A stretch of DNA of 58,566 bases. Source: an uncultured Verrucomicrobiales bacterium (GTDB lineage: Bacteria; Verrucomicrobiota; Verrucomicrobiia; Verrucomicrobiales; Akkermansiaceae). The position numbers and the translations under genes are program-made. How positions within the stretch are numbered: position 1 is the first letter of the stretch; each line of letters begins with the position of its first letter. The stretch spans positions 1 to 58,566 of the forward strand of contig CALGZA010000050.1 in assembly GCA_937934595.1 (NCBI GenBank). Direction: 5' to 3'. Under the pieces are notes generated by a model that saw only the letters and a program-made list of their open reading frames with translations, was not told the DNA's origin and made no database searches. This document shows, piece after piece, positions 55,434 to 56,741 of the stretch.

Positions 55434-55936
55434 CGTTGGTATGGAGATTGTGGTGAGTGATGTAAATTGGTGATAGTGAGTTAGATGAAATTCATTATTA
55501 ATCACCAGTCGATGTTTGTTTATGAGTTAGATGTAACTTCTTTAAGGAATTTCATGGTTATTTTTTATTGGCAGAGCAAACAGGTGTGCACAAGGTCTTT
55601 TACCTTCTTGAGGGTGAGCGGGTCAAATGAAGTAAGTTTTTTTGAGTTATGTGTTATACTTTCATTGTCGTTTCAATGGCCAAATAGTAAAATGTTAAGG
55701 TTATATAATGTGGGTAGGAAAAACAGAACAGGGATCTGTGAGTTGTGAATATGTTTGGTTTGGGATTAATCTCAGTGTTGTCACATGCCATGAATTTCAT
55801 TTAGTTTCATTTATATTTAATGCTTACTATATATCTTATTACTTTGTGTAGTGTATTTTTACTGTAATTAGGCATGGTGAAGGTATTTCTCCTTTACAGA
55901 TGCTGAATAACGAATATAATGGTTTTGTAACTGTAG
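55434..55936. other. Intergenic stretch between GT4 and the SHD1-like gene
   Basis: About 500 bases with no gene I can support. An 87-codon open frame at 55485-55748 has no ribosome-binding site and no recognisable product. The sequence is A/T-rich, especially 55790-55930, and must contain the divergent promoters for the GT4 gene and the SHD1-like gene. Confidence 0.4.
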
Positions 55937-56527
55937 ATGTTGCTTGCACTTATGAAACAATTTTTTATGAAATATAACTTATGTCTTTTGGCCACGCTTA
56001 TGACGGGATTTTTTTCTGTTATAGCGTCTGCTGGGTTGGAGTCTCGAACATTTTTTAGCGCTGACAAGTCTAAGTCATTTAAGGGAACCTTGAAGTCTTA
56101 TGATCAAAGCAGTGGTAAGGTTAGGGTGCGCACTATTAAAGGTAGAGATAAAACTTTTAAAATTAGTGTGTTGTCGGATGATTGTCAGGCTTATATTACT
56201 GACAATATAAGCAAGGTGGCAGTTGCGTCAGCGCTTGATATTTCAATTAAGCAGATTAAAGAGAAAAAGTCTAAGGGTAGTGATAGTTCTGATTATAAAT
56301 ACTCGGTGACTTTTTACAATAAAGGGAAGAGCCTTTTGAAGGATCTAGATGTTGATTATACGGTTTATTACAAGAAGGATACTATTAAGCGAGGTGTGAA
56401 GGCGACTTCGCTCACAAGCACGGGATCATTTGATATTTCTGAAATTGACCCTAAGTATAGGAAAACGGATACAACTAGCCCGATATCGATTACAAAGAAG
56501 ACGATCAAAGGAAAAGGCGGGGGCTGA
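55937..56527 (+). CDS. Secreted SHD1-like protein, interrupted by an in-frame TGA
   Basis: 196 residues to the TGA at 56525-56527. Start may be the ATG at 55937, 55952 or 55967; all lead into one signal peptide (LCLLATLMTGFFSVIASA). The first mature part, SRTFFSADKSKSFKGTLKSYDQSSGKVRVRT and so on (residues ~36-95), matches the SLA1-homology-1-like repeat common in PVC secreted proteins (R-F/W-x-(x)-D-G-x5-G, then K-V-x-V-R, then LS-x-D). A second beta-rich part begins YKYSVTFYNKGKSLLKDLDVDYTVYY (~121-146) and contains TSTGSFDISEID. The reading ends at KGKGGG, but the same frame stays open for 46 more codons with a matching tail (next entry). Function unknown. Confidence 0.7.
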   Translation: MLLALMKQFFMKYNLCLLATLMTGFFSVIASAGLESRTFFSADKSKSFKGTLKSYDQSSGKVRVRTIKGRDKTFKISVLSDDCQAYITDNISKVAVASALDISIKQIKEKKSKGSDSSDYKYSVTFYNKGKSLLKDLDVDYTVYYKKDTIKRGVKATSLTSTGSFDISEIDPKYRKTDTTSPISITKKTIKGKGGG

Positions 56528-56668
56528 TGTGGACCAGGTATACCAGGCGGTCGCCTGACAGATCGGATAGTAGGAATAATAATTGATGTGAAGATTGATG
56601 GTGAGATTGTTATGACTGAGTCAGACAATAGTACATTATTGAATAAAGTATTGAAGGAGCGAGATTAG
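56528..56668 (+). pseudogene. In-frame continuation of the SHD1-like gene beyond the TGA
   Basis: Directly after the TGA the same frame has 46 sense codons and then TAG at 56666-56668. The product reads CGPGIPGGRLTDRIVGIIID, then VKIDGEIVMTESDNSTLLNK to the end. The core (basic residues, hydrophobic beta strand, a second strand with dG-x-hh, acidic-Ser, then a leucine helix) is the normal C-terminal tail of the PVC family to which the upstream part belongs, as I remember it. A strong terminator follows 35 bases later. The simplest reading is one gene with a nonsense mutation; translational readthrough is the alternative. Confidence 0.6.
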
Positions 56669-56703: not shown

Positions 56704-56741
56704 GGCTTCGGAGCTATTATTCTCTGAAGCCTTTTTTATTT
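56704..56741 (+). terminator. Intrinsic terminator of the SHD1-like gene
   Basis: The stem GGCTTCGGAG / CTCTGAAGCC has ten pairs with one G-T wobble, an 8-base loop, and TTTTTTATTTT directly after. It lies 35 bases past the TAG at 56668, not directly after the TGA at 56527. Confidence 0.88.

Follow-up and report, generated by a model that had tools for sequence, protein, structure and literature searches.

The window gene and its predicted product

Within the window, the whole stretch of 58,566 nucleotides that was analysed, an open reading frame on the forward strand (55937–56527) closes at a TGA triplet, beyond which the same frame remains open for 46 sense codons before reaching TAG (Table 1). 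The sequence-only reading had taken this extension to be the missing C-terminus of the protein and had placed a terminator after the second stop; both proposals are borne out, the first by homologues that retain the tail under purifying selection and the second by a hairpin followed by a run of T residues which is found only downstream of the TAG and of which 0.3 would be expected by chance. The codon adjoining the TGA is for cysteine, as had also been read. Translation may begin at Met codons at 55952 or 55967 as alternatives to 55937, and a scan of the window against Rfam gave no match at gathering scores.

Table 1. Features of the window gene and its surroundings (positions are those of the window).
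Feature	Position	Strand	Remarks
Promoter-like site TTTACA-16-TATAAT	55893–55920	+	Consensus match only, 11/12
Complete coding sequence	55937–56668	+	243 residues, the UGA-encoded Sec being residue 197; ends at TAG 56666–56668
Signal-peptide-like N-terminus (MLLALMKQFFMKYNLCLLATLMTGFFSVIASAG)	55937–56035	+	Putative; sequence read by eye
SHD1-like (SH3-fold) domain	56036–56215	+	AlphaFold2 model against Sla1 SHD1 2hbp; weak by sequence
Immunoglobulin-like β-sandwich	56228–56629	+	Structure matches; last strands encoded 3′ of UGA
Sec-UGA codon, GGG-U-C-G loop	56525–56527	+	Comparison with homologues
Cys codon (TGT) directly after UGA	56528–56530	+	Putative Sec partner, vicinal Sec-Cys
46-codon tail under purifying selection	56528–56665	+	dN 0.25, dS 1.1 against nearest relative (G004)
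bSECIS hairpin CAGGC-GGUC-GCCUG	56544–56557	+	Apical loop 56549–56552; loop starts 21 nt past UGA
Intrinsic terminator-like hairpin, then TTTTTT	56704–56731	+	3′ of second stop

The AlphaFold2 model obtained for the window protein with ten relatives has a pLDDT of 83.9. Its first 60 residues superpose on the SHD1 domain of Sla1 (2hbp) with a Z score of 9.2 and an rmsd of 1.9 over 58 of 66 residues, while the gathering score of Pfam SHD1 (PF03983) was not reached (best E 0.011, in one of 13 members). The remainder of the model is an Ig-like sandwich with Z scores of up to 10 to the Ig-like domains of GH2 and transglutaminase proteins, and the fold search with this C-terminal domain returned only the common Ig-like arrangement, with no function indicated. 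The final strands of the sandwich (173–176, 178–188 and 191–197 in the model) are supplied by the tail, so that a product ending at the UGA would hold an incomplete domain, and the loop carrying the UGA-encoded residue is a low-confidence segment joining two strands that is presumably flexible. A signal-peptide-like start, judged by eye, is common to nearly all homologues. Three of these from the window's own genus (L008, L009 and L012, from genomes G006, G002 and G005) carry an extra N-terminal domain ahead of the SHD1-like domain. At least five further SHD1-like proteins are present in the window's genome (L002–L006, on G000:C19, C71, C31, C24 and C7), matching in the N-terminal domain only.

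Recurrence of the TGA and exchange of Sec for Cys

When a profile of the C-terminal domain was run over 387 genomes of the order, the in-frame TGA of the window gene was found to recur at 63 homologous loci in 62 genomes, spanning 19 genera and five families of the Verrucomicrobiales; no TGA-bearing member was detected outside this order in a phylum-wide sample of 387 genomes, within the sensitivity of the profile used. Seventeen of the TGA-bearing loci had already been recovered with the window protein alone as query, and a search of 58 relatives with the read-through protein gave homologues belonging to a number of genera and families, the match in almost every one containing exactly one in-frame TGA. 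A scan by narrower alignment found 10 named MAG loci, the named relatives being Akkermansiaceae and Verrucomicrobiales MAGs, and no relatives on viral contigs; peptide-pattern scans of genome and viral contigs built from the window protein alone found no relatives, and a search of plasmids no family member.

After translation and alignment all of the TGAs map to one short Gly-rich loop, which reads GGGUCG in the window protein and its nearest relative and, among others, SGGUCG, GGUUGA, GGGUGG, ACUGG, GCUGV, GSTUCR and QCAGGTU elsewhere. The constraint on the tail, measured by dN/dS, equals that on the part preceding the TGA, and is seen again between the tails of G018 and G030 (dN 0.15, dS 1.6). 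In 61 of the 63 loci a further Cys or Sec lies no more than eight residues from the Sec, and in the remaining two a second Sec precedes it by about 10 residues. The pair varies in order and spacing (UC, CU, UU, UxxxxC, CxxxxU) and may be a redox or metal-binding one. One homologue (L009 1501–2157, genome G002) has two adjacent in-frame TGA codons, a tandem Sec-Sec, with one shared hairpin downstream, and six others (L020, L098, L123, L136, L139 and L141) have two in-frame TGAs each, some distance apart. Gene neighbourhoods compared at 30 loci revealed no conserved partner except among close relatives, and offered no clue to function.

The window's genome encodes selA (510 bits), selB (301 bits, above the family cut-off), selD (375 bits) and a tRNA-SeC with the anticodon tca (tRNA-Sec(UCA)). 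Its selD (L068; G000:C6:15481–16407, + strand) is itself a selenoprotein gene, with an in-frame TGA at the classical position (CGGUASK) that provides an internal positive control, and with a hairpin 32 nt past the UGA, TCTCGCA-AGTTC-TGCGAGA, whose loop (AGUUC) is of the AGUU type. Across the 387 genomes selA is found in 60 of the 62 that carry the TGA form and in 58 of the 325 others (Fisher p = 1.8e-34, a value inflated by the relatedness of the genomes). The two exceptions, G039 and G249, are incomplete assemblies (83% and 54% complete), and G039 contains both selB and tRNA-Sec.

The replacement of Sec by Cys provides a test that stands apart from this inflation. Four orthologues from genomes lacking selA (L112, L116, L118 and L119) have a Cys codon at the TGA position, in the loops GGACPTC, GGGCRGGSC, GGCSSGGC and GKCGGGGC, and L013, from a genome that possesses selA, likewise has Cys (DDCCSG). 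In the tree the Cys forms are scattered among the Sec forms, at least six changes of label being forced by well-supported branches. Cys at this position and the presence of selA, selB, selC and selD were the checks that the sequence-only reading had proposed, the former as evidence favouring Sec, and both returned that answer. In a more distant subfamily from genomes without selA (L134, L140, L142 and L152) a CPxC motif (SSCPKC, SSCPTC) replaces the Sec loop, possibly as another Cys-based redox version.

The hairpin downstream of the UGA

The published model of the bacterial SECIS places a loop of 3–9 nt, with a G in its first two positions, on a stem of 4–16 bp, the loop lying 16–37 nt after the UGA and the minimum free energy being at most −7.5 kcal/mol (PMC13188914). 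With perfect stems only, these limits are satisfied by 48 of 59 distinct members, against 3.75 passes expected from synonymous recoding of the same peptides and a pass rate of 2.7% at background codons of the same genes; an energy of −5.5 kcal/mol is reached by 57 of the 59. In nearly all members the apical loop is GGUC, AGUU, GUU or a near variant, 17–25 nt past the TGA. The four Cys orthologues from selA-lacking genomes show no SECIS-type hairpin in the same scan. Three TGA-bearing loci (L086, its near-copy L114, and L130) gave no perfect-stem hairpin, and their stems may be bulged.

Covariation within the 5-bp stem is extensive. Across 24 distinct sequences 120 of 120 cells are paired, a percentage inflated by the choice of these hairpins through a pairing search, and double changes occur at each of the five pairs, with 43 double-change cells against 15.5 in shuffles and a covariation score of 0.985, where shuffles give 0.23 and slid structures no more than 0.19. 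A register taken from the protein alignment alone, anchored on the Asp of the RxxD motif, again yields a paired stem in most members, those left unpaired being mainly the ones with a different or longer Sec-to-Asp stretch. The distance from hairpin to UGA is kept even in members with an insertion in the protein, which argues that the signal tracks the UGA rather than the protein.

The window's own hairpin lies within the model limits for loop, stem and spacing (4, 5 and 21); as to energy, its upper stem by itself comes to −6.8 kcal/mol and the local fold to −10.5 kcal/mol. Against dinucleotide shuffles the local fold is unremarkable on its own (z = 0.12); as a single-sequence fold it is unexceptional, and the support for this putative element is comparative. 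The sequence-only reading had recognized this hairpin and its selenocysteine-type GGUC loop, but had counted against it the 21-base spacing and the missing bulged U. Neither objection stands, the spacing being inside the range of the bacterial model and a bulged U not being among its requirements (PMC13188914).

Probable selenocysteine insertion, its rivals and its relatives

Selenocysteine is almost certainly the meaning of the in-frame UGA in the window gene, to judge from the comparison of homologous sequences, which demonstrates a conserved recoding signal, the accompanying machinery, Sec/Cys interchange and RNA covariation; it is from these that we infer physical insertion of Sec. We consider it highly probable that the complete explanation is SECIS-directed Sec insertion into an exported selenoprotein composed of an SHD1-like domain and a β-sandwich with a Sec-Cys loop. 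Ribosomes arriving at the UGA would meet the hairpin, which would recruit SelB carrying Sec-tRNA(UCA), and after insertion translation would run on to the TAG. The exported product would combine an SHD1-like SH3 domain with the β-sandwich fold and would display Sec beside Cys, both carried by a flexible Gly-rich loop that connects two late strands. There the pair could form a reversible selenenylsulfide and serve, outside the cytoplasm, in thiol/selenol redox reactions or in metal binding. The biochemical function is probably extracytoplasmic redox or metal handling.

The sequence-only reading had favoured a nonsense mutation in a redundant gene, and had ranked Sec insertion as less likely. 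Sec insertion is upheld by conservation, machinery, Cys replacement and covariation; the ranking is not. The sole support for a nonsense mutation, after which the tail would be decaying, is that a TGA interrupts the frame, whereas the identical TGA recurs throughout the 63 loci, the tail is under purifying selection, the terminator stands 3′ of the second stop, and the genome has no paralogue of full length, its other matches being confined to the N-terminal SHD1-like domain; conservation across 19 genera refutes this reading, to which we attach virtually no probability. Reassignment of TGA to an amino acid in the lineage has equally little to commend it, having nothing beyond the in-frame TGA in its favour. 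It is refuted by the use of TGA as the terminal codon within the family itself (12 of the 63 members), and it sits poorly with the tRNA-Sec(UCA) and full sel set of the genome and with the restriction to one or two TGAs per gene, all inside the same short loop.

A hairpin and a conserved tail are compatible with any programmed recoding, and the hairpin could in principle stimulate selenium-free readthrough of the UGA by a near-cognate tRNA such as that for Trp or Arg. This is most improbable, however, given that the family co-occurs with selA, that Cys is the replacement in selA-less genomes, that a SECIS-type loop is common to the family and to selD of the same genome, and that a second Cys or Sec is always close to the site. 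A selenium-sensing switch, in which scarce Se yields a short form that stops after GGG and ample Se the Sec form, is inherent in every UGA-Sec gene, and such a short form would retain the signal peptide and SHD1 domain; the proposal is compatible with, and additional to, Sec insertion. We nevertheless think it unlikely, the short form being probably unstable for want of the sandwich's final strands and the Cys orthologues making the long form only.

With Sec insertion as the preferred reading, the family operates by the known Sec mechanism and resembles other bacterial UGA/SECIS/SelB selenoproteins in its in-frame UGA, the hairpin 16–37 nt further on, whose loop has G in its first two positions, the sel machinery and the existence of Cys homologues. 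It falls outside the catalogue of these proteins: the 119 prokaryotic selenoprotein families and subfamilies tabulated in 2026 include no SHD1-like or equivalent entry, catalogued families without an HMM in the NCBIfam or Pfam libraries being compared by name and motif only, and the accompanying review leaves Verrucomicrobia unmentioned (PMC13188914). There was no match above cut-off in NCBIfam, no Pfam family covers the members, and a literature search that covered few subscription papers found none joining SHD1 and selenocysteine or describing the family. The DUF1573 selenoprotein (PF07610, motif UGC) also has a Sec near a Cys. DUF1573 is likewise an Ig-like β-sandwich domain. The window family differs from it in motif and in being fused behind an SHD1-like domain, and 18 members gave no match to PF07610 at E up to 1. 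Adjacent Cys and Sec are shared with the vicinal CU selenoproteins (SaoL, SaoC, KCU-star and the HgcA CU motif), but in the window family neither the order of the two residues nor their spacing is fixed, and a profile scan with models of those proteins gave no match. The likeness to Sla1 SHD1 lies in the predicted fold of the N-terminal domain, from which the family departs in its weak sequence similarity, its predicted export and its junction to a Sec-bearing sandwich. The conserved TGA, the sel machinery, the Cys orthologues and the covarying hairpin together thus point to a new and apparently undescribed selenoprotein family.

This family is unusual in its predicted fold and export, in a chalcogen pair that moves, and in having members with tandem or double Sec. 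Under standard annotation every one of its genes would stop at the UGA, and both the final strands and the probable active site would be lost. Dozens of bSECIS elements that align and covary can be drawn from the family, falling mainly into two loop classes, GGUC and AGUU. Together with natural Sec/Cys switches that track how the machinery was gained and lost, they make a data set suited both to SECIS prediction and to the question of why Sec is kept. The two-Sec members, one with adjacent UGA codons, would imply unusual chemistry. Rather more tentatively, we suggest that exported selenoproteins of this kind, whose Sec is borne by an Ig-like sandwich and not by a thioredoxin fold and whose mobile chalcogen pair includes tandem Sec-Sec, may together make up an order-wide system, peculiar to the Verrucomicrobiales, for redox reactions or metal capture outside the cytoplasm.
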